From: Geodermatophilus sp. YIM 151500
GTDB taxonomy: Bacteria; Actinomycetota; Actinomycetes; Mycobacteriales; Geodermatophilaceae
Direction of reading: 5' to 3'
Assembly (NCBI RefSeq): GCF_025716945.1
Contig: NZ_JAOVZT010000008.1
Span: 152,955 to 186,933 of the forward strand
Length of the DNA stretch: 33,979 nt
Under the pieces are notes generated by a model that saw only the letters and a list, made by a program, of their open reading frames with translations, was not told where the DNA came from and ran no database searches. This document shows, piece by piece, positions 4,123 to 33,652 of the stretch. Made by a program: the position numbers and the translations under genes. Within the stretch, counting starts at the first letter, position 1. Each line of letters starts with the position of its first letter.

Positions 4123-4161
4123 CGGTCCCCCTCTCCCGATCAGGCCAGTGTGGCGCGCTGC

Positions 4162-6919: not shown

Positions 6920-7007
6920 GGTCTGTCCGCCTTTCACTCGGGTCTCTACCGATCGGGGTTCTGTGCCGCCGCCCGTACGATGTACGCGTCGTAGCAGAGG
7001 GAGGGCG

Positions 7008-8057: not shown

Positions 8058-8110
8058 TCCCTGCTCCGGAGGCGGATCCCCCGGCGTGAACAAGCTCATC
8101 CGGTCTGCCA

Positions 8111-10122: not shown

Positions 10123-10775
10123 CGAGCACCATCCCCGCGGAGGAGAGAGGGAACGGTCAGGAGGAGGATGCGGAGGTCCCCGGCCAGGGATCGGGTCCGC
10201 AGATACTCCAGGTCCAATCGGAGCATGTCGAGGGTGGTGACCGCGCTCCGGCCGCTCACCTGCCACAGGCCGGTGAGCCCGGGACGGACGGTGAATCGGT
10301 CGTCGAACTCGTCGGGGAACATGTCCGCTTCCCAGGGCAGGCACGGCCGGGGGCCCACCAGAGTCATCTCGCCGCGGAGCACGTTGATGAGTTGCGGTAC
10401 CTCGTCGAGGCTCGTCTTGCGCAGGAGCCGCCCCGACCTCGTGATCCGGGCGTCGTGGTGGAGCTTGGTGCTCCCGTCCAGAGCAGTGTTCTCGCCGCGA
10501 AGTTCGGCCGCGATGAGCCGCCGGTGTGCTTGATCGTCGCCCCCTACCCGCATCGATCGGAACTTGTAGAGCTCGAACGGTCGGCGGTCCAGCCCGATCC
10601 GCTCCTGGCGCAGGAGCGCGGGCCCCGGGCTGTCCCATCGCACCCACAGGGCGATGCACAGGAGCAGCGGCGCCAGGAGCAGCAGTGCCGTTGCAGACGT
10701 GCCGATGTCCAGTGCGCGTCGGACGCTGTCCGCCCACGTGCACGGACGCTGCGGCACGTCGTCACTCGTGCTCAT
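10119..10775 (-). CDS. Initiating sugar transferase (polyprenyl phosphoglycosyl transferase)
   Basis: A 218-residue monotopic phosphoglycosyl transferase (bacterial sugar transferase family). One N-terminal hydrophobic segment (SATALLLLAPLLLCIALWV) precedes the catalytic core with RIGLDRRPFELYKFRSM, LRKTSLDEVPQLINVLRGEM, LVGPRP and RPGLTGLWQVSGRS, all canonical. It lacks the extra N-terminal membrane domain of WbaP-type enzymes. It moves a sugar-1-phosphate from a UDP-sugar to undecaprenyl phosphate at the cytoplasmic membrane, starting the repeat unit. ATG 10775 lies 14 nt inside the end of the polymerase gene, and the stop overlaps the next gene by 4 nt. Confidence 0.92.
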   Translation of the reverse strand: MSTSDDVPQRPCTWADSVRRALDIGTSATALLLLAPLLLCIALWVRWDSPGPALLRQERIGLDRRPFELYKFRSMRVGGDDQAHRRLIAAELRGENTALDGSTKLHHDARITRSGRLLRKTSLDEVPQLINVLRGEMTLVGPRPCLPWEADMFPDEFDDRFTVRPGLTGLWQVSGRSAVTTLDMLRLDLEYLRTRSLAGDLRILLLTVPSLLRGDGAR

Positions 10776-13799: not shown

Positions 13800-14683
13800 G
13801 TATCCGAACGAGGGGGCCGGGTCATCCGGCGCGCGAGGATGGCAAGGAGGAACACCGCCAACACCCCTCCGATCGCGCCACCAGCGCTCGTGGCGACCAT
13901 CGGCCGAGGGCTGACCGGAGTCGGATCGACATAGGGTTGTACGAGCGTCGAGGCTCCCGGTCCGACGAGATCGGTCATCCGCAGTTCGTCGAGTTGGGTC
14001 CGCAGCCACTGCTCCCGCTCCACCAGCGGCGCGAGCTGATCCTGACCGCTCGGCGCGCCGCTCCGCACGGCCTCGATCCGGTCGAGGATGGCGAACAACT
14101 CGGCGTCCAGGTAGTTCTGGACGTCGGACCGGGCGTCGGCGTTCGCCACCGCGAGGTACTCCTGGACCACCCAGCTGAGTACTTCCACCGCCCGATCGCG
14201 GTCGCTGTCGACAAAGCGGATGTCGATGATCTCGCTCTCGCTCAGGACGTCGGCCGACAGCGCCGGCGTGAGCTCGTCGACCGAAACCTGCCACTCTGCC
14301 GCGACCGGATCGAGCACGGCCCGGCTCTCTAGGAGCACCAGTTGTGTGCTCATGTTTCGGTCCTCGCGTAGGAACCCGGTTGGTTGTTCGCGGGTCAGGG
14401 CGTAGACGACCTGGGCGTGCGCGGCGTACTGCACCGGCATCGCGGCCGCAACCAGATAGCCTGCTGCGGCCCCAACCGCTACGAGGACGACTGCCAGTGA
14501 AGTGAGCGCCGTCCACTGGTGGCGGGTGAGCCATCTCCGGGATCCGAGTCGCTCCACCGCTGAGCCGGTGGGGCGAGGCTGACTTTGAGCGGTGACCGCC
14601 GCCCGGTCTGCAGGAGCGTCCTCGACCGGAGCGCCCGCGGGGGCGTGGTGGAGACCCCGCCGACCGTTGACATCAAACTTCAT
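13796..14683 (-). CDS. Wzz-like polysaccharide chain-length / co-polymerase protein
   Basis: A 295-residue protein with two transmembrane segments: about 58-80 (ALTSLAVVLVAVGAAAGYLV) and 267-285 (AGGAIGGVLAVFLLAILARR). The Pro-rich stretch before the second (VDPTPVSPRP) is the hallmark of Wzz/polysaccharide co-polymerases. The extracytoplasmic part between them is helical and acidic. There is no C-terminal tyrosine kinase domain, unlike fused CapAB-type proteins, and no separate BY-kinase was seen. ATG 14683 overlaps the aminotransferase stop by 4 nt and the gene overlaps the flippase start by 4 nt. It is expected to set chain length together with the polymerase. Confidence 0.85.
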   Translation of the reverse strand: MKFDVNGRRGLHHAPAGAPVEDAPADRAAVTAQSQPRPTGSAVERLGSRRWLTRHQWTALTSLAVVLVAVGAAAGYLVAAAMPVQYAAHAQVVYALTREQPTGFLREDRNMSTQLVLLESRAVLDPVAAEWQVSVDELTPALSADVLSESEIIDIRFVDSDRDRAVEVLSWVVQEYLAVANADARSDVQNYLDAELFAILDRIEAVRSGAPSGQDQLAPLVEREQWLRTQLDELRMTDLVGPGASTLVQPYVDPTPVSPRPMVATSAGGAIGGVLAVFLLAILARRMTRPPRSDT

Positions 14684-15780
14684 GGGAGACCTGCCCGGGC
14701 GAGGACGTCGCAGACCCGGTCGACCTGGTCGATGGACAGGGTCGGTGACATGGGCAGCGACAGGATGGTGTCCGCGGCCCGCTCCGCGACCGGTAGGGGG
14801 CCATCAGCAAAATCGGCGAAGGCTGGCTGCTGGTGGCAGGGAACCGGGTAGTGGACTCCCCAGCCGATCCGCTCGGCGTCGAGGGCGGCTACTGCTGCCG
14901 CGCGGTCGGTGACTTGCACCATCGCGAGGTGGTGCACCGACTCGGCCCGCGGGTGCTGTGCGAGCGGCGTGCATCCGTCGGGGAGGCGTTGCCGATACCG
15001 GTCCATCAAGACCCGTCTGCGCTCGTTGTCCCTGTCCAGGTGCGCCAGCTTGGCGGTGAGGACGGCGGCTTGCAGGGTGTCCAGCCTGCTGTTCCGGCCG
15101 CGGACCTTGTGGACGTGGTGGCCTCCCGCCACCCGGCCGTGGTTGGCGGCCACCCGGATCCGATCGGCCAGCGCCGCATCGTGGGTCACCACGGCGCCGC
15201 CGTCCCCCAGCGCTCCCAGGTTCTTCCCGGGATAGAAGCTGAAACCCGCAGCGATGCCGACCGAGCCCGCTCGACGGCTCCCGAAGCGAGCGCCATGAGC
15301 CTGGGCGGCGTCCTCGATCAGTGCGATGCCGTGCCGCTGCGCGAGAGGAGCCAACCTGTCGACGTCCGTCATCTGGCCGAACATGTGCACGGCCATGAGC
15401 GCGGCCGTGCGGGGGCCCACGGCTGCTGCGACCGCGTCAGGATCGATCTCGAGCGTGTCCGGTCGGACGTCGACGAACCTGGGTCGGGCGCCTGCCGCGC
15501 ACACGGCCTCAGCGGTGGCGACGAACGTGTTCGCCGGCACGATGACCTCGTCGCCTGGCCCGATCCCCAGGGCGACGAGGACGAGTTCCAGGGCGTCGGT
15601 CCCGTTGGCCACCCCCACGCAGTGCGCGCTGTCGCAGAACTCTGCGAACCGTAGTTCGAAGGCCTCGGTTTCGGGTCCCCCGATGAATCGGCCGTGGGTC
15701 AGGACGGCCTGCCAGCATCCGTCCAGCTCGGCCCGGAGGGAGTCGGCCAGACCTCGGACGTCGAGGAACGGGATCGGCAT
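14680..15780 (-). CDS. DegT/DnrJ/EryC1-family sugar aminotransferase (WbpE-like)
   Basis: A 366-residue PLP-dependent nucleotide-sugar aminotransferase. It opens with IPFLDVRGLADSLRAEL and has GVANGTDALELVL (56-68), IEDAAQAHGA with the PLP-ring Asp at 157, and GFSFYPGKNLGALGDGG with the Schiff-base Lys at 186. It most resembles enzymes that aminate UDP-3-keto sugars (WbpE/WlbC type). The start is ATG 15780; a GTG at 15792 (4 nt after the previous stop) is an alternative. It is next to the Gfo/Idh dehydrogenase that could provide the 3-keto substrate, so conversion of UDP-GlcNAcA to a 3-amino uronate is inferred. Confidence 0.88.
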   Translation of the reverse strand: MPIPFLDVRGLADSLRAELDGCWQAVLTHGRFIGGPETEAFELRFAEFCDSAHCVGVANGTDALELVLVALGIGPGDEVIVPANTFVATAEAVCAAGARPRFVDVRPDTLEIDPDAVAAAVGPRTAALMAVHMFGQMTDVDRLAPLAQRHGIALIEDAAQAHGARFGSRRAGSVGIAAGFSFYPGKNLGALGDGGAVVTHDAALADRIRVAANHGRVAGGHHVHKVRGRNSRLDTLQAAVLTAKLAHLDRDNERRRVLMDRYRQRLPDGCTPLAQHPRAESVHHLAMVQVTDRAAAVAALDAERIGWGVHYPVPCHQQPAFADFADGPLPVAERAADTILSLPMSPTLSIDQVDRVCDVLARAGLP

Positions 15781-15796
15781 GGAAGTCAGCACCGGA

Positions 15797-17008
15797 TCAC
15801 CGCGCTGAGAAGAGCCGGCGATCGGCCATGGGCGGCGGGACCGGAATGGTGGGGACGCCGGACTCTCCCGTCGACACATCCGCTCCGGCGACTACGTCCT
15901 CGCCGGCAACGTCGGCGAGCTGGTCGGTCGCGGCGAGGACTCGAACCACTTCCAGCCCACGTTCACCGGGGGTGTTCGGTCGCGTACCCGTCCTGAGGCA
16001 CTCGACGAAATGCTGGTCCTGGAGCAGAAGCGGCTCGTGAAAGGGGATGTAGGGCGAGACGATGTCGCCCGTGCGGTAGGACACCGGCAGGGCGTGGGCT
16101 TCCTCCGGGTCGTCGATCTCTTGGACGTCGACGCCTATGTCGTAGATGCGAATCCTTTCGTTGTCCGACATGTCGTCGTAGACGGCCATCTTCTTCTCAC
16201 CCACGACGGTGACCTGCCGGACCTTGTTCGGAGTGAGCCAACTGACGTGGACGTACGCCCGTGCCTGTGACTGTGGAAAGTCGAGACGGAGGTAGGCCAC
16301 ATCGGCGTGCTGCCGGTTGATGTGGCTGTGCGCCCATACCGTCGCGCAGGACGGCATCTCGTCGAGTATGTAGGAGATGATCGAGATGTCGTGAGGTGCC
16401 AGGTCCCAGATGACATTGACGTCGCTCTGGTACCGGCCGAGGCTCAGCCTGGCTGCGTCGATGTAGAGGATCCGTCCCAGTGCGCCGGTCCGGACGAGCT
16501 CCCGGAGCTTCCAGACGGCAGCGTTGTACTCGAACGTGTGCCCGACCATGAGGTGGACCCCCTGGTCGGCGGCGATCTCCACCAACATCTCGGCGTCCTC
16601 GACGGACGTGGCCAGGGGCTTCTCCACCAGGACGTGCTTGCGGGCTTCGAGCGCGCAGCGGGCGATCGCGGCGTGGGTGCCGGGCGGTGTGGCTACGACA
16701 ACCGCGTCGACATCGTGCAGGACGTCCTCCAGCGTCGGGGCGACCCGGGCCGAGGGATAATGGGCTGCGGCCTCAGCGAGGCGGCTCATCTGGCCGTCAA
16801 CGATGGTTACGTCCACGTGCGGGGTGCTGCTGAGTACGCGGACGTGCTTCGAGCCCCAGTAGCCGTAGCCGACCACGGCGATGCGATCTCGAGGCGTCGC
16901 CCGCCTGTCAGGACTGCGCATGCTGGGAAGGGGAGACGCATGGGTGGTGGAGAGAACGGCGACGTCGCTGGCCTCACGACTCGCCGGGGCATGTACTAGG
17001 TGCCTCAT
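15797..17008 (-). CDS. Gfo/Idh/MocA-family dehydrogenase (WbpB/WlbA-like UDP-GlcNAcA 3-dehydrogenase)
   Basis: A 403-residue NAD-dependent oxidoreductase with Rossmann motif VVGYGYWGSKH (45-55), the EKP catalytic-site motif VLVEKPLAT (126-134) and a WDLAPHDISII segment with the conserved His at 206. This set fits the WlbA/WbpB branch that oxidises C3 of UDP-N-acetylglucosaminuronate. The ATG at 17008 has AAGGA ten bases upstream; it adds ~40 residues before the fold, and ATG 16921 is possible but has no ribosome site. It is the first gene of the exopolysaccharide operon and is followed 16 nt later by the aminotransferase. Confidence 0.85.
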   Translation of the reverse strand: MRHLVHAPASREASDVAVLSTTHASPLPSMRSPDRRATPRDRIAVVGYGYWGSKHVRVLSSTPHVDVTIVDGQMSRLAEAAAHYPSARVAPTLEDVLHDVDAVVVATPPGTHAAIARCALEARKHVLVEKPLATSVEDAEMLVEIAADQGVHLMVGHTFEYNAAVWKLRELVRTGALGRILYIDAARLSLGRYQSDVNVIWDLAPHDISIISYILDEMPSCATVWAHSHINRQHADVAYLRLDFPQSQARAYVHVSWLTPNKVRQVTVVGEKKMAVYDDMSDNERIRIYDIGVDVQEIDDPEEAHALPVSYRTGDIVSPYIPFHEPLLLQDQHFVECLRTGTRPNTPGERGLEVVRVLAATDQLADVAGEDVVAGADVSTGESGVPTIPVPPPMADRRLFSAR

Positions 17009-21204: not shown

Positions 21205-22112
21205 CTAGGGCGTGTCCTGTGGATCTTCGCGGAGCCAAAGGACCGTGGCGGCGATGAGGAGCAGAGCCCGGTAGTAGGCGGCGCGTTTGGCGTAGCGCGT
21301 GGCCAGGGCGCGGAACTGCTTGAGCCGGGCGAAGCAGCGTTCGACGACGTTGCGTCCTGCGTAGATGGCGGGGTCACAGACCGGTGGTCGGCCGCCGGCT
21401 GCGCCTTTGGCCTTGCGGCGGGCGATCTGATCGCTGCGTTCGGGGCTGGTGAAGGCGATGTGCCGGCGGCGCAGCGCCTGCCGGGTGGAGGGATGGGAGT
21501 ACGCCTTGTCGGCGATCACCCGGTCCGGGCGCTGCCGCGGCCGGCCGGGCCCGACCCGGGCGACGGACACCTCCTCGAGCAGCGGCAGCAGCTGCGGATT
21601 GTCTCCGGCCTGACCGGCGGTGAGCAGAATGGCCATCGGGAGCCCGCGGCCATCGACGGCCAGGTGCAGCTTGCAGGTCAGTCCGCCGCGGGAGCGTCCG
21701 AGGGCCTCGCCGTCGACGGCGAGGGCTTCGACCGGTTCGCTGCAGCCCCCTTTTTCCGTGCTCCGGCGGCGTGCTGGTGTGCCCGGACCGAGCTGGAGTC
21801 GACGCTGAAGGTCCATTCCACCGTGCCGACCGCGTCGTCCTTGACGACCACCTCGGCGAGGATCCGTTCCCAGGTGCCATCGGCGGTCCACTTCCGCAGC
21901 CGCTCGTGCGCGGTCTTCCACGGGCCATACCGTTCGGGCAGATCCCGCCAGGGCACGCCGGTCTTGGCCTGCCACAGAATCGCGTTGATCACCTGCCGGT
22001 GATCGCGCCACCGGCCACCGCGGTGCCCGGTCGTGGGCAACAGCGGCTCGATCCTTGCCCAGGCCGCATCGGTGAGCTCATGCCGGCCGATCATCCGACC
22101 AGCCTGAATCAC
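21205..22112 (-). CDS. IS5-family DDE transposase, two frames joined by -1 frameshifting
   Basis: The first frame (22112 to 21678) begins at GTG 22112, or ATG 22094 (MIGRHELTDAAWARIEPLLP), and contains TFSVDSSSVRAHQHAAGA with the first catalytic Asp. At an A5G5 run (21755-21746 on the plus strand; A AAG GGG in frame) a -1 shift enters the second frame. That frame reads through the VIADKAYSHPSTRQALRRR region (second Asp) to NVVERCFARLKQFRALATRY (catalytic Glu), completing a DDE set. The last codons are CAG GAC ACG CCC TAG; the TAG is not in the IS but arises from the flanking TA plus the adjacent base. The order and frameshift position match the IS427-type two-frame organisation. Confidence 0.85.
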
Positions 22113-23008: not shown

Positions 23009-23755
23009 TCAGGCCCCGCGTCGCCGCAGGCCACCTGCCCGCAGGGCAACTTCGCCGGGCCCCTGAGGCGGGAAGGCGTCCACCAAGGGCGGTGATTCGG
23101 CTGCGGCCGCGACAACAGCGTCCAGGTCTCGGTCGAACCAGTCGACGAGGTGCAGGGAACCAAACCGACTCAGTGTCCGCCCATCGCTCGCTGCCCGCTC
23201 CGTCGCGAGCTCGAGTTCGACGCGCGCCAGCTCGTCGAGCGTGACGGCGCCGACCTTGACCAGGCACTCTTTGCGCACCCAATGCCGGAGGAAGGCGACG
23301 GACGGCTCGGGTGCGGACCGCACCCGGGAGGTCTCGGCGGTGGTCAGGGCGTAAGCCAGAACGGCTGGGTCGGCATCCAGGCCGGAGGAGCCCTCCACGT
23401 CGACGCCGATCGGCTGCCAGCCTGCGCCCGCGACCACGGCACCGCGGGTGTGCGCGAGGCTGACGTGCAGGTCGGGCACGCCGGCGATCGACGGCTTGCC
23501 ATGCTCCGTCGACCCGCACTCGGAGCATCGCTGCACCAGCTCTACAGTGCCGGGGATCCGGCCGGTCAGAGCTGCCGCGCAGTGCCGGACCAGTAGGTGC
23601 GCCGCGACGTAGGCCTCACGGTCGGCCCGGTGGGCCAGGGCGGCACCGCGCCGTCGCTCGCTCGCCGTCAAGATGTTCTCGTCCCACTGTTCGAGCACCG
23701 CGGCGGGGTGCGCGACGAGGACCAGCGGCCCACGAACGGGTGAATTTCGGCTCAT
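23009..23755 (-). CDS. Sfp-type 4'-phosphopantetheinyl transferase
   Basis: A 248-residue enzyme with the family signatures HVSLAHTRGAV (97-107), GVDVE (117-121, Mg2+ ligands) and HWVRKECLVKVGA (158-170, the WxxKE motif). It transfers phosphopantetheine from CoA to the conserved Ser of carrier domains. The ATG at 23755 has an excellent AGGAGGTGA ribosome site nine bases upstream. It is divergent from the peptide synthetase gene at 24020 across a 264-bp spacer. It is most simply the dedicated activator of that protein's carrier domain (Ser597). A Cys pair (CSECGS, 77-82) in the N-terminal half is a small oddity. The protein acts in the cytoplasm. Confidence 0.9.
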   Translation of the reverse strand: MSRNSPVRGPLVLVAHPAAVLEQWDENILTASERRRGAALAHRADREAYVAAHLLVRHCAAALTGRIPGTVELVQRCSECGSTEHGKPSIAGVPDLHVSLAHTRGAVVAGAGWQPIGVDVEGSSGLDADPAVLAYALTTAETSRVRSAPEPSVAFLRHWVRKECLVKVGAVTLDELARVELELATERAASDGRTLSRFGSLHLVDWFDRDLDAVVAAAAESPPLVDAFPPQGPGEVALRAGGLRRRGA

Positions 23756-23889
23756 CTCACGTCACCTCCTGCTCGTTCCCGACGTCGACGGTCGCTCTCG
23801 GACAGGTCGCGCCCCTGCGTCAGAGGTCGACAGCGGCTTGTGATACGACGGTGGATCGTTCGCGCCGTTGTCACCATGCGAGACATTCC

Positions 23890-23909
23890 CGTCATCCCCC
23901 GTGATGACG
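23890..23909. promoter_or_regulatory. Inverted repeat in divergent promoter region
   Basis: A perfect 7-bp inverted repeat with a 6-bp centre, CGTCATC-CCCCGT-GATGACG, lies 135 bp upstream of the phosphopantetheinyl transferase start and 111 bp upstream of the synthetase start. Its position suits an operator shared by both genes. The whole 23756-24019 spacer is visibly less GC-rich than its surroundings; no confident -35/-10 hexamers were assigned. Confidence 0.35.
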
Positions 23910-24019
23910 ATTGGTATGAACCGTCGGCTGTCCTGCGCCGGGCGCCAACGCCTTGCGCGCAGTCAGATTGTCTCTAGCCTCGGGAAGCTTGGTCAGACAG
24001 GGTTACAGAAAGTGAGTTC

Positions 24020-27000
24020 ATGGCAACGCATAGCAATGGCTGGGATTTTTTCTCGACATTCGCGGGAGATGCCGAGGATTCGTCCGAGTCGGCTGTTACG
24101 TCCCACCAGGTACACGACAACACCACTATTTCCTTCCGCCTGCACGACAACTTCGCGGCCGAGATGTCCGGCCAGCGTGCTGGGTGCACTCGGCTGAGCC
24201 GGTACTTCGAACGGACCTGCGACAGCCGGCCGTCGGCCACCGCCCTCGAGGTCGAAGGCGAGCACCTCTCCTACGCCGACCTCGACCAGCGCGCGAACCG
24301 GCTGGCGAACCTGTTGATGGCCCGCGGTGCGCGCGCCGGTGTCCGGGTCGGGATCCTCCTCCACCGTTCGGTGAGCACCTACCTGGCCCTGCTGGCGGTC
24401 ACGAAGACCGAGGCGACGTTCGTCCCCATCGACCCGGAGGCGCCGGCCGAGCGGCTGCAGTACATCGCCGACGACTCCTCGCTGGGTCTGCTCGTCACGC
24501 ACACGTCGTTCGCCGCGTCCTGCGCCGCCTTGCCCTGCGAAAGCCTTTACCTGGACGAGTTGGGTCCCGAGCTCGCGATGCAGTCGAGCGCCCGGCCCGG
24601 CATCGAGTCCGACGGGGACCCGGTCTGCTACATCATCTACACCTCGGGCTCCAGCGGTCGACCCAAGGGCGTCGAGATCAAGCAGTCGAGCATCTGCAAC
24701 TTCATCGGCATCGTGCCGTCCCTGTACGGCGTCGAGCCGACCGACCGCGTGTACCAGGGCATGACGATCGCCTTCGACTTCTCCATCGAGGAGATCTGGC
24801 CCACCTGGGCCGTCGGGGCGACGCTCGTGGCCGGCCCGACGGACGGCCGCCGGGTCGGGTCGGGTCTGGCCGACTTCCTCGAGGACAACGAGATCACGAT
24901 GATCTACTGCGTCCCCACCGTGCTGGCCACACTGGACCGCACACTTCCGCTGATCCGCACGGTGAATGTCGGCGGCGAGGCCTGCCCCCGCGAGCTGGTC
25001 GACCGCTGGGGCCCCGGCCGCCGGATCCTGAACACCTACGGGCCCACCGAGACGACCGTGACCTGCACCATGGCCGAGCTCCGGCCCGGCAGGCCGGTCA
25101 CGATCGGCCATCCCCTTCCCACTTATCGGGTCACCCTGCTCGACGACGAGCGCAGGCCGGTCCCTGCAGGTGAGGTCGGGGAGATCTGCGTCGGCGGTCC
25201 CGGGGTCGCGCGCGGTTACGTGAACCGGCCCGACCTCACCGCCGACCGCTTCATCCCCGATCCGCGTGGAATCCCGGGCGAACGCATCTACCGCACCGGG
25301 GACCTCGGCCGGTTCCTCCCCGACGGGGAACTGGAGTATCTGGGTCGCGCTGACAGCGAGGTCAAGGTGCGCGGCCACCGCGTGGACCTGCAGGAGATCG
25401 AAAGCGTGCTCCTCGAGCATGATCAGGTGACCGGTGCCGTCGTCACGCTTCTGTCGTCGCAGGACACCGGAGGGGACCTCGCCGGATACGTCATGCTGCG
25501 CAGCGACGGTTCGGCCGACGAGGTTGTGGCGCAGTTGCACGAGCAACTGGTCGCCCAGATGCCGCCGTACATGGTGCCGTCGTTCCTCGACGTGGTGTCG
25601 TCGATCCCGATGCTGCCCAGCGGCAAGGCCGACCGTGGCCGGCTTCCCGCGCCCACCCGGCCGCGGCTGATCCGCACCGACCGGGAGCACGAGCCGCCGG
25701 CGACCCCGGGGGAGGCATGGATCGCCGGCATGTGGGAGGAGATGCTCCGCCTGCCGGTGGGTGCGGTCTCCGTGGAGGCCAATTTCTTCGAGGCGCTGGG
25801 CGGGCACTCCCTCGTCGCGGCCAACGTCGTGTCCAGGATGCGGGAGAGCGACCTGGGCACGGGGCTGTCCATCCTGGACTTCTACCGGCACCCCACGGTC
25901 CGCGAGCTGGCCGCCTTTCTCGAGGACGGGACGGGCGGCACGACGGACGACATCGTGACGCTCGAGCCGCACGGACCCCGGCCGGCTGCGCCGTCCCGGC
26001 GGCGGGTCCTCGCCTTCGGGACGGCCCAGGTGTCGGTGCTGTACGCGGTCGTCCTGGCCTTCCTGCTCCCCGTCGGCGTCCTCTACGGGCTCAACGGCGG
26101 TCAGCCCTCGGCCGCACTGCTCGCGCAGCTCGCTGTCGCGCTGCCGTCGGTCTACCTGCTGGCCCGTTGGGTCCTTCCGGTTGCCGGCGCGCGGCTGCTG
26201 GCGCGGGGCCTCGGAGCCGGTGACCACCCACTCTGGGGTGGCATGCACCTCCGGGTCTGGACCCTGCAGAAGCTGATGTCGATCTCCCCGCTCTCCGTCC
26301 TCAGCGGCTCGCCGTGGGCGGTGACCTATCTGCGGATGGCCGGTGCGCGAATCGATGACGAGTGCCACATCGGGACGGCGAGCATTTCGCTGCCCTCACT
26401 GCTGCGGGTGCAGCGCGGCGCGACGGTTGGCTACGGCACGCAGCTGCACACCCACCGCATCGCGGAGGGCGTCCTGACGATAGGCCCCGTCACCATCGGT
26501 GCCGGTGCGGTCGTGGGGTCGGAGAGCGTGCTGGAGTGCAATTCCGAGGTCGGCGAGAACGCCATCCTTGGTGACCAGTCGCTGCTGCCGTCGCAGCGGG
26601 TCGTCCCGGCCGAGGAGACCTGGTCGGGGTCTCCGGCAAAGCCAGCGCCTGAGGTCATGGACCCCGTCGTCGAGCTCATGGCCGGGTGCGACGACGCGCC
26701 CCGCACCTGGTCCGGACGCCTCCTGGCCGGCTTCGCCGGTGGCCTCCTGCTGCTCGAACTGATGCCCTTCCTCATCTTGCTACCGGTGGTGGTGGCCGTG
26801 TGGTGGGCCCTGCTCGCCTTCGGGACGGCAGCCGGCCTGCTGGTCACCGTCCTGTCCGGACCGCTGTTCGTGGCCGCCTCCTGCGCCCTCGTCCTCGGCG
26901 CCCGACGCCTGGTGCTGCCCGAGACTCCCGAGGGTGTGCACCACCTCCGCTCGCAGCTGGGCCTGGAGAAGTGGCTGGGCGACAAGCTGCTCGAATTGAG

Positions 27001-28165
27001 CCTGCTGTTCAACAACACCATGTACTCGACGCTGTACACGCCGCTGTGGCTGCGGGCCATGGGGACGAAGGTCGGCAAGGGCGCCGAGGTGTCCACGATC
27101 GCCAACATCGACCCCGACCTGCTCACCGTGGGCGACGGCAGCTTCGTGGCTGACATGGCCAGCGTGGGCAGCGCCACCTACGCCAACGGGCACGTCGCCT
27201 TCCGGAGGACCGAGATCGGCTCGCGGGCCTTCGTCGGCAACGCCGCCTTCGTTCCGTCGGGCTCGCACCTGGGCGAAGGCTCGCTGATCGGTGTCCGCTC
27301 GGTACCCCCGACCGCCGGGACCGAGCCGAACACGTCCTGGCTGGGGTCCCCGCCCTTCTTCCTGCCCCGCCGGGAGGTGTTCGAGGAATTCACCGAGGCC
27401 GAGACATACGCGCCGTCGCGGCGGCGGGTCCGTGCCCGGTACGCGATCGAGTTCCTCCGCATCGTCCTGCCGAGCTCCCTGCTCGCCACCGCGACGTTCG
27501 CCACGCTCTACGGGCTCTCCGCAATGGCGGTCTCCTGGAACACGGTGGTCACGGTCCTGCTCGCCCCGCTGGTCGCCCTGGCCTCCAGCGTCCTGGTGGT
27601 GGCCGTGGTGGCAGCCGTCAAGTGGTTGGTGGTTGGCCGGTACCGGCCACGGGTGCGACCGCTGTGGAGCGGCTTCGTCCGCCGGTCGGAGTTCGTCACC
27701 GGCATCTACGAGGCCGCAGCGGTGCCGGCCCTGCTCACCTTCCTCACCGGCACACCGCTGCTCGGCCCGGCACTGCGGCTGTTCGGCGCCCGGGTCGGCC
27801 GGCGGACGCTGATCGACACGACCTACCTCACCGAGTTCGACCTGGTGGCCATCGGGGACGACGCCTCGGTGGGTGCGAACGCGTCGCTGCAGACCCACCT
27901 GTTCGAGGACCGCGTCATGAAGATGGACTACGTGACCCTCTGCGACCGTGCCAGCATCGGCGACAAGGCCGTCGTCCTGTACGGCTCCGTCGTGGAGCAG
28001 GACGCCACGCTGGCCGCACTGTCGCTGGCCATGAAGGGCGAGGTACTCCCGGCGGAGACCACATGGTACGGCATCCCGGCGCAGAAGGTCGGAAGGGCGC
28101 CGACGGCTCCACTCGCGCGCGGCCGGCACCGGGTGCCCACGGGCGCGAGGGCAGGGCGGCGATGA
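24020..28165 (+). CDS. Pls/PosA-type non-ribosomal peptide synthetase (membrane poly-amino-acid synthetase)
   Basis: A 1381-residue enzyme with the architecture of epsilon-poly-L-lysine synthetase. The adenylation domain (~58-545) shows A3 YIIYTSGSSGRPKG (204-217), A5 NTYGPTETT, A7 YRTGDLGRF, A8 VKVRGHRVDLQEIE and the A10 lysine PSGKADR (Lys536). The carrier domain follows (~565-640) with LGGHSL, phosphopantetheine Ser597. There is no canonical condensation or thioesterase domain. Instead three modules of membrane segments (~664-725, 903-960, 1145-1205) each precede a left-handed beta-helix region (~778-875, 1016-1110, 1258-1360), as in Pls, where tandem C-terminal domains join activated monomers iteratively. 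Mapping to the GrsA pocket gives D253 F254 E257 Y296 N316 G318 T339 V347 T348 K536; Glu at the third place suggests a basic substrate. A start at ATG 24163 is possible. Confidence 0.9.
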   Translation: MATHSNGWDFFSTFAGDAEDSSESAVTSHQVHDNTTISFRLHDNFAAEMSGQRAGCTRLSRYFERTCDSRPSATALEVEGEHLSYADLDQRANRLANLLMARGARAGVRVGILLHRSVSTYLALLAVTKTEATFVPIDPEAPAERLQYIADDSSLGLLVTHTSFAASCAALPCESLYLDELGPELAMQSSARPGIESDGDPVCYIIYTSGSSGRPKGVEIKQSSICNFIGIVPSLYGVEPTDRVYQGMTIAFDFSIEEIWPTWAVGATLVAGPTDGRRVGSGLADFLEDNEITMIYCVPTVLATLDRTLPLIRTVNVGGEACPRELVDRWGPGRRILNTYGPTETTVTCTMAELRPGRPVTIGHPLPTYRVTLLDDERRPVPAGEVGEICVGGPGVARGYVNRPDLTADRFIPDPRGIPGERIYRTGDLGRFLPDGELEYLGRADSEVKVRGHRVDLQEIESVLLEHDQVTGAVVTLLSSQDTGGDLAGYVMLRSDGSADEVVAQLHEQLVAQMPPYMVPSFLDVVSSIPMLPSGKADRGRLPAPTRPRLIRTDREHEPPATPGEAWIAGMWEEMLRLPVGAVSVEANFFEALGGHSLVAANVVSRMRESDLGTGLSILDFYRHPTVRELAAFLEDGTGGTTDDIVTLEPHGPRPAAPSRRRVLAFGTAQVSVLYAVVLAFLLPVGVLYGLNGGQPSAALLAQLAVALPSVYLLARWVLPVAGARLLARGLGAGDHPLWGGMHLRVWTLQKLMSISPLSVLSGSPWAVTYLRMAGARIDDECHIGTASISLPSLLRVQRGATVGYGTQLHTHRIAEGVLTIGPVTIGAGAVVGSESVLECNSEVGENAILGDQSLLPSQRVVPAEETWSGSPAKPAPEVMDPVVELMAGCDDAPRTWSGRLLAGFAGGLLLLELMPFLILLPVVVAVWWALLAFGTAAGLLVTVLSGPLFVAASCALVLGARRLVLPETPEGVHHLRSQLGLEKWLGDKLLELSLLFNNTMYSTLYTPLWLRAMGTKVGKGAEVSTIANIDPDLLTVGDGSFVADMASVGSATYANGHVAFRRTEIGSRAFVGNAAFVPSGSHLGEGSLIGVRSVPPTAGTEPNTSWLGSPPFFLPRREVFEEFTEAETYAPSRRRVRARYAIEFLRIVLPSSLLATATFATLYGLSAMAVSWNTVVTVLLAPLVALASSVLVVAVVAAVKWLVVGRYRPRVRPLWSGFVRRSEFVTGIYEAAAVPALLTFLTGTPLLGPALRLFGARVGRRTLIDTTYLTEFDLVAIGDDASVGANASLQTHLFEDRVMKMDYVTLCDRASIGDKAVVLYGSVVEQDATLAALSLAMKGEVLPAETTWYGIPAQKVGRAPTAPLARGRHRVPTGARAGRR

Positions 28166-29538
28166 TGGCTAGCACGCGGGGACCCCGCAACGGTCTGCGG
28201 GAGCTCTCGAGCGAGACGTCGACGGCGCCGGGCGCTCCGCCGACAGGGAGCCAGCCCCTCTCTCACGCCTGCGAGCAGGTCCGGCCCGGCGACGTCTCCG
28301 GCACCCCGTCGAGCACCGCGCCGTCCCAGCGGTCGAGTGGGCGCATGATCGGCATCGACGCCGCTCGCGGCGTCGCGCTTCTCGGCATGATGGCGGTCCA
28401 CCTCATCGACCCCATCGCGGACGACGGGAGCCCATCGCTGGCCTGGACGCTCGCTGCCGGCAAGTCGGCAGCCCTGTTCGCGGTGCTGGCCGGCGTCGGT
28501 GTCGCGTTCACCACCGGCCGTCGTCAGCGGCCGACCGGGCGGACCTGGCCGGGGCACGCCGCCGGGTTGCTGGTCCGGGCGCTGCTCATCGGTGTGGTCG
28601 GGCTGCTGCTGGGCTCCGTGGTGGCCGCCGACCTCGCTGCGGTGATCCTGCCCTATTACGCCTTGCTTTTCGCGTTCGCCATCCCGCTGCTCAGCCTGTC
28701 CAGCCGCGCGCTCGTGGCACTGGCTGCGGTTATCGCGGTAGGCATGCCGATCCTCAGCCACGTGCTGAGGGCCGGTACGGAGGCAGCGCTGATCGTTCCG
28801 AATCTCACGTTCAGCGAGCTGCTCGACCATCCGGCACGGGTGCTGCGAGACCTCGCGTTGACCGGCGTGTACCCAGCGCTGCCGTGGATGGCCTACCTCT
28901 GCGCCGGTCTGGCCGTCGGGCGCGCGTTGCTGACGTCACGGCGCACGGTCACGCTCGTTGCCCTGACCGGTGCCGGACTCGTCGTGGTCTCTCGGACGGT
29001 TTCCTGGATCCTGATGGACGTCTTCGGCGGCCGCGCCGAGCTGGCGGCGGTCGCGAGCCGGTCCATGACCTCGGACCGGTGGGCCGAGGTCATGGCGGTC
29101 GGGTGGACGGGGACGACGCCGACCGACACCGCATGGTGGCTGGCCACGATGGTCCCGCACTCCACCACGCCGCTGGACCTGGCCTCCACCACCGGTATCT
29201 CGCTGATCGTCATCGGGGTCGCTATCCTCGTCGGCCGCGCCACCACCGCGCTCCTGCGGCCGCTGGCCGCCGCGGGAAGTATGAGTTTGACCCTCTTCTC
29301 CCTGCACGTGCTGCTGCTCAGCTGGCCGTCGTCACCAGAGGGCGTGGCGGGGCTGCTCGCCCATACCGTCCTCGTCGTCGCTTTCGCGCTGGTGTGGAGC
29401 AGTTACTACGCGCGGGGACCTCTGGAGGAGATCGTCGCCCAGGCCGCCGGCGCGGTGCGCCGCAGGGTGCAATCGGTGATCGACTCGCCGCGTGCGGCCG
29501 AGACCAGCCCGCCGGACGGCGGCGTCGGTGGCTCCTGA
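28162..29538 (+). CDS. Polytopic membrane protein, DUF418/HGSNAT-like acyltransferase family
   Basis: A 458-residue protein. The first ~60 residues are a Ser/Pro/Thr-rich cytoplasmic tail, followed by about ten hydrophobic segments. The first of these carries GIDAARGVALLGMMAVHLID (64-83), a signature of DUF418/DUF1624/heparan-alpha-glucosaminide N-acetyltransferase-like proteins. Other landmarks are YPALPWMAYLCAGLAVGRAL in the middle and MSLTLFSLHVLLLS near the end. ATG 28162 makes an ATGA overlap with the synthetase stop, so the two proteins are translationally coupled and probably made in fixed proportion. Related enzymes carry acyl groups across the membrane. Capping or acylating polymer amines is a reasonable inference, as is export. 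Confidence 0.8.
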   Translation: MMASTRGPRNGLRELSSETSTAPGAPPTGSQPLSHACEQVRPGDVSGTPSSTAPSQRSSGRMIGIDAARGVALLGMMAVHLIDPIADDGSPSLAWTLAAGKSAALFAVLAGVGVAFTTGRRQRPTGRTWPGHAAGLLVRALLIGVVGLLLGSVVAADLAAVILPYYALLFAFAIPLLSLSSRALVALAAVIAVGMPILSHVLRAGTEAALIVPNLTFSELLDHPARVLRDLALTGVYPALPWMAYLCAGLAVGRALLTSRRTVTLVALTGAGLVVVSRTVSWILMDVFGGRAELAAVASRSMTSDRWAEVMAVGWTGTTPTDTAWWLATMVPHSTTPLDLASTTGISLIVIGVAILVGRATTALLRPLAAAGSMSLTLFSLHVLLLSWPSSPEGVAGLLAHTVLVVAFALVWSSYYARGPLEEIVAQAAGAVRRRVQSVIDSPRAAETSPPDGGVGGS

Positions 29539-30238
29539 CCTTCCCCTGCCCGCGGACCTGGCGCTGGTGTACCGCGGTCCGGCTTCGACCCCGGGCTGTC
29601 CTGAGGCCGTGGCGGCCGCGTTGACCCGAAGCCGATGGAACCTCGAGGTCCGCTACGTGGGACCGCGTGAGCGGCTGCCGCTGGAGCCGGGCGTCCTCGC
29701 GGGCGCCCGGCTCTACGCCCAGCCGGGTGGCGGTCGCCTGCGGAAGGCGTACCGGAAGCTGAAGCACTCGCGCGCGGCGGTTCGAGAGTTCGTCCGGTCC
29801 GGCGGTGCCTACCTGGGCTTCTGCCTGGGTGGCTACCTCGCCGGCGATACCCCCGGATTCGGCCTTCTGCCCGGGGACACCGACCGTTTCATCTCGTCGC
29901 CCGGGGCCCGGCCAAGACACGACGGCGACAGCCTGGTGTCGGTGACCTGGAACGGTCGCCGACACCAGCTGTACTTCCAGGACGGTCCGTGGTACGACCT
30001 CGACTCGAGCCGGGGTCCGGCTGAGGTGTTGGCCACCTACGACAACGGACTGCCCGCCGCTGTCGTCGCGCCGTTCGGCCTCGGAGCTGTCGGCGTCGTA
30101 GGACCGCACCCCGAGGCCTCGCCCGACTGGTACCTCGCCAGCGGACTCCCGGTCCCCGCCGATGTCGGCGCGGACCTTACGCAGGATCTGGTCGACCGGG
30201 TGCTGCAGGTCGGCCGGGGGGCGCGACGCGTGGGCTGA
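29528..30238 (+). CDS. BPL_N / class I glutamine-amidotransferase-like protein
   Basis: A 236-residue protein of the biotin-protein-ligase N-terminal (BPL_N) type, in the DJ-1/GATase-like superfamily. It has LALVYRGPAS at the start, a LYAQPGGGRLRKAY segment (63-76) and the nucleophile elbow AYLGFCLGGYLAG with Cys99, then YFQDGPWYDL and GPHPEASPDWYL. There is no ligase domain. GTG 29528 lies 11 nt inside the membrane-protein gene, so it is the third coupled gene of the synthetase operon. The reaction is unknown; the Cys elbow suggests amide hydrolysis or transfer. A role on amide ends of the polymer is speculative. Confidence 0.8.
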   Translation: MAPDLPLPADLALVYRGPASTPGCPEAVAAALTRSRWNLEVRYVGPRERLPLEPGVLAGARLYAQPGGGRLRKAYRKLKHSRAAVREFVRSGGAYLGFCLGGYLAGDTPGFGLLPGDTDRFISSPGARPRHDGDSLVSVTWNGRRHQLYFQDGPWYDLDSSRGPAEVLATYDNGLPAAVVAPFGLGAVGVVGPHPEASPDWYLASGLPVPADVGADLTQDLVDRVLQVGRGARRVG

Positions 30239-30307
30239 CCGCGGCGGGAGCCAGCTGCTCCGGCGGGATGGTGGACGCTCGTCCGCGCGGGAGCCCCCTC
30301 GTCGTGG

Positions 30308-31516
30308 TCACGACGCGTCGATCAGCTGCCCCACGGTCCGGCCCAGTCGGCCGTCGAGGGCGTGGCCGACACCGGCCGGGAACTCGTGAGAGGTGATGAC
30401 GCCACGGGCGGCATAGAAGCGTTCCCCGGCTTGGGCCCCCCACGACGCGGTCAGCGGGACTGCCGTGTCAGCCGTGCCCGTGTACCAGTGGCCGCGAACC
30501 CCGGCCATGGTCGCCGTGGTCACCGCCGCGCCGCCGTCGGCCGGCGGGCCGCCGCCGCCGAACAGCACCCAGCCCCCTCCGTGGCGCAGCAGCTCCGGGT
30601 GCCGCGGCACCAGGAACCGCGTGACCTCCTGCGCGCCGGAGGAGAAACCGGACAGCCACACCTCGGCGACCGGGTAAGCGGCGAGCTGGGCCTCGATCAA
30701 CTCGGCGAGGAAATCGGCGTATCCGCTCGTGTCGCCGGTGTGCCAGCACTCGCAGGACTGGTTCGGGCTCTCCACGGCGAGCGTCATCATGTTCCGTGCT
30801 CGGGCGGTGGCGACCAGCCCGGTCGACCCGCCGAGCGCATACGAGGAATCCGGGTTGTCGACGCCGTGCTCGCCGGTCCCGTCGACGTAGACGACCAGTC
30901 CTACCGGCTGTGCCGGATCGATGCCGCCGGCGTACAGCAGGTACCGGCCAGTGTGCCCGCTACGGGCTGCGAAGGACTGCCGCGGCTGATCGGAGAAGAC
31001 GCCACTCGCTCCGCCGGATGAGCTGGCCGCGGCGTCGGACACGCCGGGCGCCTCCGGTGTCTGGGTCGCGGCGGGCCCGCGGGCGGAGTCGGGGGCCGGC
31101 CGACGCGACGCGGACTTCTCGTGCCGGCGTCCCGGGTGCGCGCCCGCCGCCCCCTGCGGGGGGTCGGTCGCGACCTCGGTCGGTGCCGGCGACGTCACCG
31201 ATCCGCCCGGATCGTCGGCGGGCTGCTCGGCGACCCTGGTGGCGTCAGCCGTGGGCGGCTCATCGGCCACGGGCGGCGGGGCCGGCACGAGGGGGACCTC
31301 GTCCTCGGGGACGACGACCGCGTCGGCGTCGGCGCCGACCACCCCGATGGGCGGCTGCTCCTCTTCCTGGCTCTCACCGGCGACATCGGGCCGGCCGGGC
31401 GTGCCGGTGGCGTCGACCCCCAATTGGGCCGGACGACATGCGGTGGTCAGGCAGACAAGGGCGACGGCCGCTAGGACGCCCCCGTGGCGGACGACGGTGG
31501 AGAGGGAAGTGCGCAC
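30308..31516 (-). CDS. Lipoprotein alpha/beta hydrolase (esterase-like)
   Basis: A 402-residue protein starting at GTG 31516, with AAGGA seven bases upstream; ATG 31603 is less likely because the signal would be internal. Residues 1-27 form a signal with lipobox-like CLTTAC, predicting lipidation at Cys27. An acidic, Pro/Ala-rich low-complexity linker (to ~170) precedes a hydrolase domain beginning RYLLYAGGIDPAQPVGLVVY. The nucleophile elbow is GFSSGAQ (Ser292); Asp350 in TGTADTAVP and His385 in AGVGHALDG complete a plausible triad. It resembles polyhydroxybutyrate-depolymerase/feruloyl-esterase-like proteins. It is convergent with the BPL_N gene. A surface hydrolase for polymer or substrate turnover is inferred. 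Confidence 0.8.
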   Translation of the reverse strand: MRTSLSTVVRHGGVLAAVALVCLTTACRPAQLGVDATGTPGRPDVAGESQEEEQPPIGVVGADADAVVVPEDEVPLVPAPPPVADEPPTADATRVAEQPADDPGGSVTSPAPTEVATDPPQGAAGAHPGRRHEKSASRRPAPDSARGPAATQTPEAPGVSDAAASSSGGASGVFSDQPRQSFAARSGHTGRYLLYAGGIDPAQPVGLVVYVDGTGEHGVDNPDSSYALGGSTGLVATARARNMMTLAVESPNQSCECWHTGDTSGYADFLAELIEAQLAAYPVAEVWLSGFSSGAQEVTRFLVPRHPELLRHGGGWVLFGGGGPPADGGAAVTTATMAGVRGHWYTGTADTAVPLTASWGAQAGERFYAARGVITSHEFPAGVGHALDGRLGRTVGQLIDAS

Positions 31517-31714
31517 GAGTGATTCCTTCGGCTGGTCGCTCGCCCATGGCGACGAACTGTGATCGCGGTGTGACCACCCGAGGTTGGCACATGCTCTCCG
31601 CATCCGTCATGTAACGGAGAGCGCACAGTTGTCCCATCTGCAACCTCCGCCCCAGGCGAACCTCGTCACCTGCCGATGTCAGATGACCGCCTCGTCATCA
31701 AGGGGCTACGGGCG

Positions 31715-32047
31715 TCAGCCCCCCTTGGCCAGCCGCGAGCGCTTCAGGCCGCCCTTCCCGCGGTCGACCGGGCTGCGACCCGCGCACTCGCCGCCGCAGG
31801 GCGCCTTGGTGGTGCACCCGTCCACGGCCAGGTCGGCCAGGTCGGCTAGGTCCAGGCCGACCATCTTCTCGTAGGCGTACAGGCAGGCCAGCCGCAGCTG
31901 GGCGAACCCGCCCCGCCGGATCCGAGCGCGGGCGGTGGCAGCCCAGCGGGTGCGCATCGATACGCGCGGGGAGCGTGGCGAGGAATGCCTCGCGCAGGGG
32001 TCCAGGATGCACGATGAGTGCGCGGGCACGAGCGGTCCACATCTCAC
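31715..32047 (-). pseudogene. IS5-family transposase fragment
   Basis: The minus strand encodes ACLYAYEKMVGLDLADLADL then AVDGCTTKAPCGGECAGRSP and DRGKGGLKRSRLAKGG. This is the segment around the first catalytic Asp of IS5-like transposases (usual form GLDLSDVAVDG, PTDRGKRG). It lacks both ends and the rest of the catalytic core. A triple 9-bp run (GCCAGGTCG-type, ~31826-31852) gives LADLADLA where one copy is expected, a small in-frame expansion. It is unrelated in detail to the intact IS at 21208-22140. It separates the hydrolase gene from the M1 peptidase gene. Confidence 0.65.
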
Positions 32048-32218
32048 GGAGCGTCAGCAACGTCGCGAGCGCGGCCCCTCGTAGCTGCCCACACTGATCG
32101 GGCGCACCGGACCACTGACGACGCCCTATCGGCGGACGCCGCGAGCGCGGATTGTCACGAGGACACCAGAATGGGAGCTGCGGCCGGAACTGCTCGGTCG
32201 CCGGCAATCGAGGACGGG

Positions 32219-33652
32219 ATGCGCAGAGGTCGACGGTGGGTCACCGCTGCCCTGTCGTGTCTGCTGCTCGGTGGCTGCACCTCCGCGCCGCCGGACGACG
32301 TCGGCCCCGACCGCGAGTCGCGCGAGGCTGTGGACGACGGTGCCGCGCCGTGGCCCGACCGGCCCGTGGTGGACCTGCGCTTCGAAACTTCCCGGGACCT
32401 CGGGAGAGTGGCCGGGCGCGAACTCGTCGAGTTCACCCCGGACCTGGAAATCTGTGAGCTGGTCTTCCGGGCGTGGCCGAACAAGCCCGTCACTGCGCAA
32501 GAGGGCACCCTGCTGACCGTGTCGCAGGTGCGGGTCGACGGCCGCGCCGCGGCTTTCCTGGACGTTGCCGCGGGCGCTTCGCAGGACACGCCGGCCGGGA
32601 CCCTGGTGGAGGTCCCGCTGGCTGACTGTGTCGACGCGGGCGAGACCGTCACTGCCGAGCTGACCTTCGCCCTGGAGCTGGGTGAGGAGGTCGACGAGCG
32701 GGTCGGGACCTCGCCCGACGCAGAGGTCGCCTGGTTGGCCACGGCCTTCCCCCTCCTTGCCTGGGAGCGCGGCCGTGGATGGCAGCGCGGGCCCGCTGTC
32801 CCGGTCAACGGCGAGACGGCCGTGAGCGAGGACTTCCGGCTCGACTCCCTGGAGGTGGTCGCGCCGGACGGATACGAAGTCCTCGGCACCGGGGAGGCGG
32901 GCGGCACGGAGGACCGGCCGGACGGGACGACCGTCCACCGGTTCTCCGCTCCGGCGGTGCGCGACGTGGCTGTCGCGGTCGGGGACCTCGACGTGGTCGA
33001 ACGCACGATCAACGGCGTCCGCGTGCGCGTGGGGCTGGACCGTGAGGTGGAGCAGGCGGATGCCGACGACTGGCTCGACCAGATTGCGGAGTCCACCCGC
33101 GACCTCATCGACCTGCTCGGTCCCTTCCCGTACGACGACCTGTGGGTCGTGGTGCTGTCTAGCCAGACGAGCGGCATCGAGTTTCCCGGAGCAATCCAGT
33201 TCGGGGATGTGGACCCGGACTACCGACGCGGACTGGTGACGCATGAGCTCGCACACATGTGGTTCTACGGTCTGGTGGGCAACGACCAGGGGCAGCACCC
33301 CTGGCTCGACGAGTCGTTCGCGACATTCGCCCAATCCGTGGCCGACGGCGACGAGCTGTCCTTGACCCGGCTGCCTGTGGAGGTGGCGCCGCCAGTTGGC
33401 GGCTCGATGCTGTACTGGGCCTCGAACTTCCAGCGGCCCAACAGCACGTACTTCGACACGGTTTACACGATCGGTGGCGCCGCACTGGTGGAGGCCCGGA
33501 CGCGAGCGGGCGCGGAGGCCTTCGACGCCGCGCTGGCCGACTACCTGGCGGCGAACGCTCACTCCGTTGCGACCCCGAACGACGTCCGGGAGGCGTTCAA
33601 CGACCTGCCGGACGTCCTCGACGTGCTACGCGAGGTAGGCGCGCTGCCGTAA
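32219..33652 (+). CDS. M1-family (gluzincin) metallopeptidase-like lipoprotein
   Basis: A 477-residue protein. ATG 32219 is chosen because GAGGA lies just upstream and a lipoprotein signal follows at once (WVTAALSCLLLGGC, lipidated Cys20). The N-terminal part is beta-rich, as in M1 peptidases. GIEFPGA (319-325) replaces the canonical GAMEN. HELAH (342-346), followed by 18 residues and Glu365 in WLDESF, is a complete HExxH-x18-E zinc site, with YTIGGAAL further on. Pls-type synthetase loci in Streptomyces include a poly-lysine-degrading aminopeptidase of this class (as I recall), so turnover or self-protection against the polymer is a reasonable inference. It acts outside the membrane. Confidence 0.88.
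   Translation: MRRGRRWVTAALSCLLLGGCTSAPPDDVGPDRESREAVDDGAAPWPDRPVVDLRFETSRDLGRVAGRELVEFTPDLEICELVFRAWPNKPVTAQEGTLLTVSQVRVDGRAAAFLDVAAGASQDTPAGTLVEVPLADCVDAGETVTAELTFALELGEEVDERVGTSPDAEVAWLATAFPLLAWERGRGWQRGPAVPVNGETAVSEDFRLDSLEVVAPDGYEVLGTGEAGGTEDRPDGTTVHRFSAPAVRDVAVAVGDLDVVERTINGVRVRVGLDREVEQADADDWLDQIAESTRDLIDLLGPFPYDDLWVVVLSSQTSGIEFPGAIQFGDVDPDYRRGLVTHELAHMWFYGLVGNDQGQHPWLDESFATFAQSVADGDELSLTRLPVEVAPPVGGSMLYWASNFQRPNSTYFDTVYTIGGAALVEARTRAGAEAFDAALADYLAANAHSVATPNDVREAFNDLPDVLDVLREVGALP

Follow-up and report, generated by a model that had tools for sequence, protein, structure and literature searches.

We consider it fairly likely that a locus of six genes in the actinobacterium Geodermatophilus sp. 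YIM 151500 links units of a short diamino acid by isopeptide bonds into a cationic polymer or oligomer that is secreted, and that this chain is N-acylated and trimmed on both sides of the membrane. The locus lies in a stretch of 33,979 nucleotides (contig NZ_JAOVZT010000008.1 of RefSeq assembly GCF_025716945.1, positions 152,955 to 186,933 of the forward strand), referred to here as the window, and is built around a single-module synthetase of the Pls/PosA family. Known already are the synthetase family, its association with an M1 metallopeptidase and the concept of a cationic isopeptide product; cationic poly-amino acids such as ε-poly-lysine serve as food preservatives and antimicrobials. 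The initial annotation of the window had named the same six genes, all of which were confirmed in place, and had read them as one system.

The synthetase gene (24020-28165, plus strand; 1381 amino acids) ends in a stop codon that overlaps the ATG of the next gene as ATGA. That gene, ACT (28162-29538, plus strand), encodes a predicted multi-transmembrane acyltransferase of the HGSNAT type (PF07786 HGSNAT_cat, 38.6 bits, cut-off 22), and it overlaps in turn by 47 nt with BPL1 (29492-30238, plus strand), provided that BPL1 starts at the GTG at 29492. BPL1 encodes a BPL_N protein (PF09825, 47.9 bits, cut-off 24.2) without an export-like N-terminus. The proposed coupling of both genes thus stands, for BPL1 given that start codon; the acyltransferase can be refined to HGSNAT-like, and BPL1 to a protein that looks, from its structure model, like a cysteine hydrolase. 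A gene for a phosphopantetheinyl transferase (PPTase) lies divergently upstream of the synthetase gene, and genes for a lipoprotein α/β-hydrolase-like protein (HYD) and an M1 metallopeptidase lipoprotein lie downstream.

Partner genes of DFEY-branch synthetases

We compared the window with 80 named loci, the top-ranking 80 of 394 matches to the synthetase and not a random sample, including flanks of at most 10 kb in either direction, and with 40 further stretches hand-picked around synthetases from the same order. Both sets and the window were searched with profiles of the window genes, and a partner was counted if it lay within 6 kb and scored at least 150 bits (at least 80 bits for the PPTase). 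The ten-residue specificity codes of these 121 loci read DFEYxGTVTK or a close variant in 87, the window included, DAESIGTVVK (lysine type) in 23, DFECLSxVxK in 10 and DGESVSVVNK (β-lysine type) in one. The first group, called the DFEY branch here, takes in a few loci that read DFEF or DFECxGTVTK. Partner counts for this branch refer to the 78 loci with at least 5 kb of downstream sequence, the nine shorter ones of the 87 having been dropped; one equally short locus was kept among the 34 of other branches, and one locus is counted twice (as L100 and L136). The nearest named loci (L034, L035, L046 and L047) all belong to Geodermatophilus species and are 84-88% identical in their best segment.

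A BPL_N gene was found near the synthetase in 68 of the 78 DFEY loci, in 67 of them without an export-like N-terminus, and ACT was found in 56 and M1 in 32. By comparison, the 34 loci of other branches include 24 with M1 and none with BPL_N or ACT; the lysine-type loci carry M1 in 23 of 23 cases and neither of the other two genes in any. The initial annotation had expected the acyltransferase, BPL_N, hydrolase and M1 genes to recur around close homologues of the synthetase. This held for BPL_N, ACT and M1, but not for the hydrolase: HYD is near only 15 of the 78 synthetases (14 in Geodermatophilaceae and one in Agilicoccus) and is an addition of the Geodermatophilaceae, a lineage-specific extra. 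The PPTase gene is near 17 of 78 (14 in Geodermatophilaceae, two in Georgenia and one in a metagenome-assembled genome of Pseudonocardiaceae) and is likewise an extra of certain lineages. The order synthetase-ACT-BPL prevails in Geodermatophilaceae (except L036 and L037, which have no BPL), Georgenia and Agilicoccus; synthetase-BPL-ACT-BPL is typical of Micromonosporaceae and of many Rhodococcus loci; and 10 of the 12 Streptomyces loci have synthetase-BPL without ACT, the BPL gene of one (L085) being split over frames. Otherwise, no family of open reading frames in the flanks is shared by more than 11 of the 80 named loci.

Consistent with these counts, a BPL_N gene of this type is present in 15 of 200 genomes of the order, and in 13 of these its contig also carries a DFEY synthetase, which 14 of the 200 genomes have in all (Fisher p 1.6e-17, uncorrected for kinship). 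A genome was scored as having the synthetase if it held a match at least 51% identical; one genome with its synthetase in pieces (G033) was included by identity, without a code. We conclude that the gene arrangement is non-random, that chance is largely refuted as an explanation for the presence of BPL_N and ACT, and that the one-system reading of the locus is supported.

Several individual loci were noted in the course of these comparisons. The two of the 200 genomes with the BPL_N type but no DFEY synthetase (L176 in G076 and L177 in G090) have no synthetase of any branch near the gene in the stretch examined, and the L176 copy begins with a Tat/lipobox-like signal. In Streptomyces pinistramenti (L110), a DFEY synthetase and BPL_N are followed directly by a lysine-type synthetase and M1, placing two polymer kits in tandem. 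Geodermatophilus africanus (L036) and G. siccatus (L037) each have a second synthetase-ACT locus that lacks BPL_N, the hydrolase and M1. A cyanobacterial (Nostocales) metagenome-assembled contig (L083) carries a synthetase with a DFEY code on a long branch, with the partners absent from the sequence examined, which reaches 3.2 kb downstream.

The synthetase and its expected monomer

The synthetase comprises an A domain (~24206-25654; AMP-binding, 253.7 bits) followed by a carrier domain (25718-25921, residues 567-634; PP-binding, 47.1 bits) and a polymerising membrane domain (26033-28081, residues 672-1354), all on the plus strand; the last matches the Pls/PosA terminal domain TIGR02353 (575.9 bits, cut-off 423.1). 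A Pfam hexapeptide match scores 48.6 bits, hydropathy gives three pairs of transmembrane windows (residues 671-715, 909-958 and 1169-1206) and one weak extra window, and no C or TE domain is among the Pfam matches listed. The proposed architecture, an A domain and a carrier followed by three transmembrane/hexapeptide units, is borne out by these matches, and to judge from its sequence the protein is an intact Pls/PosA-family enzyme.

Code positions were set from motifs, with a correspondence to GrsA numbering that we take as given, and were checked against the published PosA and β-lysine codes; the β-lysine-type locus read DGESVSVVNK where the published code is DGESISVVNK, a single difference. 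The window synthetase reads DFEYNGTVTK, with the conserved Asp at position 1 and Glu at position 3 that go with a diamino substrate, and Phe at position 2. According to passages of one study (PMC10522769), the family conserves Glu at position 3, which touches the side-chain amine, and position 2 sets the chain length, being Ala in synthetases for lysine, Met in those for ornithine and Phe in those for diaminopropionate (Dap) or diaminobutyrate (Dab). Given Glu at position 3 and Phe at position 2, the A domain would be expected to take a short diamino acid; neither the Ala of the lysine type nor the Met of the ornithine type is found at position 2.

The window synthetase can be set beside those of described systems. 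The δ-poly-L-ornithine synthetase PosA of Acinetobacter baumannii, whose code is given as DMEHNGTVSK (PMC10522769, in the passages available), shares with the window synthetase the family and code positions 1, 3, 5-8 and 10, and differs in having Met at position 2. The β-poly-L-diaminopropionate synthetase of Streptomyces albulus PD-1, compared by description, has the same architecture (PMC4668381) and Phe at position 2 (PMC10522769), as passages of these papers report. The ε-poly-L-lysine loci of the S. albulus pls-pldII type resemble the window in the TIGR02353 architecture and in having the gene for a surface M1 peptidase next to that of the synthetase; unlike the window, they have the code DAESIGTVVK, they lack BPL_N and ACT, and their synthetases are 32-35% identical to that of the window.

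The nearest branch to which a product can be assigned by neighbourhood is the poly-L-Dab type, represented by two loci outside the 121-locus table (L169 and L170); their product label rests on that neighbourhood. In Streptomyces celluloflavus, the gene context pldA-dat-ask belongs to γ-poly-L-diaminobutyrate (PMC8117764, in part), and the S. celluloflavus locus L169 has a synthetase of 48% identity and code DFECLSAVTK, followed by genes for a class-III aminotransferase and an amino-acid kinase of the aspartokinase type. The two loci resemble the window in synthetase identity (48-49%), in Phe at position 2 and in an ACT relative (234-248 bits) within ~3 kb, and L169 also has an M1 gene. Unlike the window, both have the code DFECLSAVTK and a dat gene, have no BPL_N in the stretches examined, and have an aspartokinase gene, found in L169 by domain scan and judged in L170 from the first residues only. 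A dat gene likewise adjoins the synthetase in all five DFECLSxVxK loci from genomes to which the dat model was applied. Since S. celluloflavus also carries a DFEY synthetase with BPL_N (L080/L154), the DFEY branch is distinct from the neighbourhood-marked poly-L-Dab synthetase.

Predicted acyltransferase, hydrolases and carrier activator

HGSNAT (heparan-alpha-glucosaminide N-acetyltransferase) uses CoA-bound acetyl on one side of a membrane to acetylate an amine on the other. The ACT model (predicted local distance difference test, pLDDT, 87.9) aligns with human HGSNAT (8vlu) at Z 24.3 over 292 residues (3.5 Å, 13% identity). In the VIA-align comparison, nine HGSNAT entries score Z 20-24, two GWT1 entries ~14 (best 14.2) and the next match 5.0. 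Searches of the PDB by sequence gave little: a single-sequence search found no solved relative at E <= 0.01, and a profile search found only weak HGSNAT matches (E 0.7-0.8). Five residues (R62, D67, R70, H81 and H334, numbered from the Ala codon at 28159) are present in 59 of 59 proteins, that of the window included. From the VIA-align scores and the Pfam match, we assign ACT an HGSNAT-type fold and predict that it is an N-acyltransferase. Second ACT copies occur elsewhere in several genomes.

The BPL1 model (pLDDT 94.6) best matches Pdx2 (2nv2; Z 21.2, 183 aligned residues, 2.5 Å) and also matches gamma-glutamyl peptidase 1 (Z ~16), with identities to the fold matches of ~10-22%. Foldseek likewise gives strong matches to glutamine amidotransferases, and the sequence profile matches HisH and other amidotransferases weakly in the PDB (E 0.04-0.1). 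C111, H206 and E208 are each present in 94 of 95 proteins, the window protein counted. The model therefore points to a class-I glutamine-amidotransferase fold and the three residues to a Cys-His-Glu triad, so that BPL_N looks like a cysteine hydrolase; the match to gamma-glutamyl peptidase 1 indicates that this fold also occurs in a peptidase. Cyanophycinase is absent from the fold matches listed, which excludes nothing. Unlike class-I glutamine amidotransferases, BPL_N stands alone and has export-like paralogues in the same loci: the copy adjoining the synthetase has no hydrophobic N-terminus; where there is a second copy, it mostly follows ACT and begins with a Tat-like or Sec-like sequence, such as MNRRRILIGAGAAGILAAL in L050. 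The synthetase of Rhodococcus spelaei (L062) is ringed by four BPL_N genes, three of them with export-like N-termini.

The M1 gene (32171 or 32219 to 33652, plus strand; PF01433, 43.6 bits) encodes a lipoprotein with a lipobox-like LLGGC, and its zinc site (H358, E359, H362, E381 and Y432; HExxH/E/Y) is kept in 59 of 59 proteins, the window protein counted, in line with what had been claimed for it. Its direct matches to the M1 genes beside lysine-type synthetases (L028-L030, L032 and L033) are weak, at 28-58 bits, and were later joined by profile. The ε-poly-lysine precedent that had been invoked is sound: in S. albulus, pldII is translationally coupled to pls (PMC9223678, in the passages available), and M1 accompanies every lysine-type locus. 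As with PldII, the window M1 combines, by sequence, an intact zinc site and an export-like N-terminus with a Pls-family synthetase nearby. The contig (C52) ends with the window, 327 nt past the M1 gene, and the visible neighbourhood stops there.

The PPTase gene (23009-23755, minus strand) encodes an Sfp-type protein, as annotated (PF01648, 31.6 bits, cut-off 25). Its motif residues D119 and E121 (D-x-E) and K162, E163 and K167 (W-x-x-K-E-x-x-x-K) are kept in 21-22 of 22 relatives, the window protein counted. The genome has three carrier-domain and three PPTase-superfamily matches, with one of each in the locus and another carrier/PPTase pair ~2 kb apart on a second contig (C44); the PPTase is therefore likely to be dedicated to the synthetase of the locus, as its presumed carrier activator. 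HYD (30308-31603, minus strand) reaches the cut-off of no Pfam family, its single listed match lying below. Its annotation as a lipoprotein α/β-hydrolase agrees with S321 (in G-F-S-S-G), D379 and H414, each present in 15 of 15 proteins with that of the window, and with a lipobox-like LTTAC.

Elsewhere in the window, two overlapping frames of an IS4/5-family transposase (DUF4096 and DDE domains; 21205-22112, minus strand) lie between the PPTase gene and a surface-polysaccharide-like cluster (1736-17008, minus strand). The latter includes a MurJ-type flippase, UDP-glucose dehydrogenase, a glycosyltransferase-28 domain, a pair of GFO/IDH/MocA and DegT aminotransferase genes, and GNAT/FemAB-like proteins.

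Proposed pathway and alternatives

The pathway that we favour is as follows; all of its reactions beyond the one common to the family we infer. The PPTase would prime the carrier of the synthetase, whose A domain would activate the monomer, a short diamino acid; the membrane domain would link the units by isopeptide bonds and release the chain across the membrane. ACT could then move an acyl group, most likely acetyl, from cytosolic CoA onto free amines of the emerging chain, lowering its charge. BPL1, as a Cys-His-Glu hydrolase, may cut or edit chain that stays or leaks inside. Outside, the M1 lipoprotein here, and exported BPL_N in other genera, would trim the chain and protect the producer, like PldII for ε-poly-lysine. 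An exported BPL_N was found in 22 of the 78 DFEY loci, and none of these is among the 32 with M1; about nine would be expected to have both (32 x 22 / 78; Fisher p 9.5e-7, uncorrected for kinship). This fits a single function, trimming outside the cell or self-protection, that either protein could perform.

Several points weigh against this pathway. ACT is missing from 22 of the 78 DFEY loci, among them all 12 of Streptomyces, and BPL_N is missing from 10, so that neither is essential for synthesis throughout the branch. ACT relatives also occur in genomes without a DFEY synthetase, 41 of the 200 genomes of the order having one, and Foldseek alone finds no match for the ACT model at E <= 0.001, the best being an HGSNAT chain at E 1.9e-3. 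The substrate of BPL_N could be glutamine or something unrelated. The label 'exported' was assigned from the hydropathy of at most 60 residues preceding the domain and not by a signal-peptide predictor, and 24 of the 78 loci have neither an exported BPL_N nor M1. Moreover, the exclusion between these two amounts to three changes on the tree and is not significant in a kin-corrected pair test (median p 0.5), so we regard it as a lead and not as proof. That the DFEY branch makes a polymer and not a short amide is deduced from the family. Finally, no gene for supply of Dap (SbnA, SbnB) or Dab (Dat, EctB) exceeds its cut-off in the window genome.

This last result can be set against other genomes. 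No dat gene is present in the locus, and the best TIGR00709 (dat) score in the genome is 150.5 bits against a cut-off of 401.6, a cut-off exceeded in 10 of 15 genomes searched. For TIGR03944 (SbnB) the window genome has no match at all; this model exceeds its cut-off in five of 28 genomes searched and, among genomes bearing a DFEY synthetase, in four of 15 in one set and nine of 18 in another. TIGR02407 (EctB) and TIGR03945 (SbnA) stay under their cut-offs in the window genome and exceed them in two of 15 and two of 14 genomes, respectively, both of the latter being Streptomyces. In these two Streptomyces, the synthetase has an SbnA-SbnB pair at a distance of ~20 kb (G201) and ~33 kb (G202), which we do not take as proof of Dap. 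A different route to Dap is possible.

Four other explanations deserve consideration. ACT and BPL might be resistance or envelope genes, with ACT acylating amines of the cell wall or of lipids and the product left as an unmodified polymer like poly-Dap or poly-Dab. The absence of ACT from part of the branch and its presence in genomes without the synthetase would both follow, and its fold relatives HGSNAT and GWT1 have an amino-sugar glycan and a glycolipid as their substrates. However, N-acylation of envelope amines would increase the negative charge of the surface and so offer a polycation a better target, and the ATGA coupling in the window, together with the ACT relatives near poly-Dab-type loci, favours a polymer substrate. 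We consider this explanation unlikely.

Alternatively, BPL_N could act in the same polymer pathway not as a polymer hydrolase but as a glutaminase, donating ammonia for synthesis of the diamino monomer. Its closest fold matches, Pdx2 and HisH, are glutaminase subunits, BPL1 has no export-like N-terminus, and the genome has no known monomer gene over cut-off. Against this, the 22 loci with a related, export-like BPL_N near the synthetase count against a role in monomer supply, since a glutaminase outside the cell would not contribute to it, and no candidate family for a synthase partner occurs in more than 11 of the 80 flanks. We judge this rather improbable.

It is also conceivable, and in our view quite doubtful, that the synthetase yields a short amide or a decorated oligomer in place of a long homopolymer. 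In the passages available, poly-Dap is put at only 0.5-1.5 kDa (PMC4668381) and the PosA products at 7-12 units (PMC10522769), and an acyltransferase with one or two hydrolases could give a defined small product; yet the three-part polymerising domain is wholly intact, and the characterised family members named in the literature passages make chains. Lastly, we find it very improbable that the synthetase alone is relevant and its neighbours reflect no more than lineage. HYD and the PPTase are mostly confined to Geodermatophilaceae and near groups, whereas BPL_N recurs within 6 kb of DFEY synthetases and of none in the 34 loci of other branches, is associated with them across 200 genomes, and is kept, like its partners, despite changing gene order in flanks that otherwise share little.

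The poly-amino acids listed in passages of one paper (PMC9606270) are linear chains without modification and two branched types, namely cyanophycin and a Dap comb. Among the titles and abstract openings listed by full-text literature searches of partial coverage, none describes a BPL_N or HGSNAT-like gene in a Pls-family locus. We suggest, tentatively, that the widespread DFEY branch makes an N-acylated polymer of a short-chain diamino acid, of a kind yet to be isolated, and that stand-alone BPL_N proteins may be a new family of isopeptide-polymer hydrolases, counterparts of cyanophycinase that work on either side of the membrane and are, in their exported form, interchangeable with M1.

In dozens of actinobacteria, a predicted N-acyltransferase and a predicted hydrolase, both conserved, accompany synthetases of the DFEY branch. 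If the proposed pathway is correct, these bacteria would make modified polymers with different charge and toxicity, and stand-alone BPL_N proteins would gain a testable function. The acceptor of a bacterial HGSNAT-type protein would also be open to direct assay, with a small set of genes.

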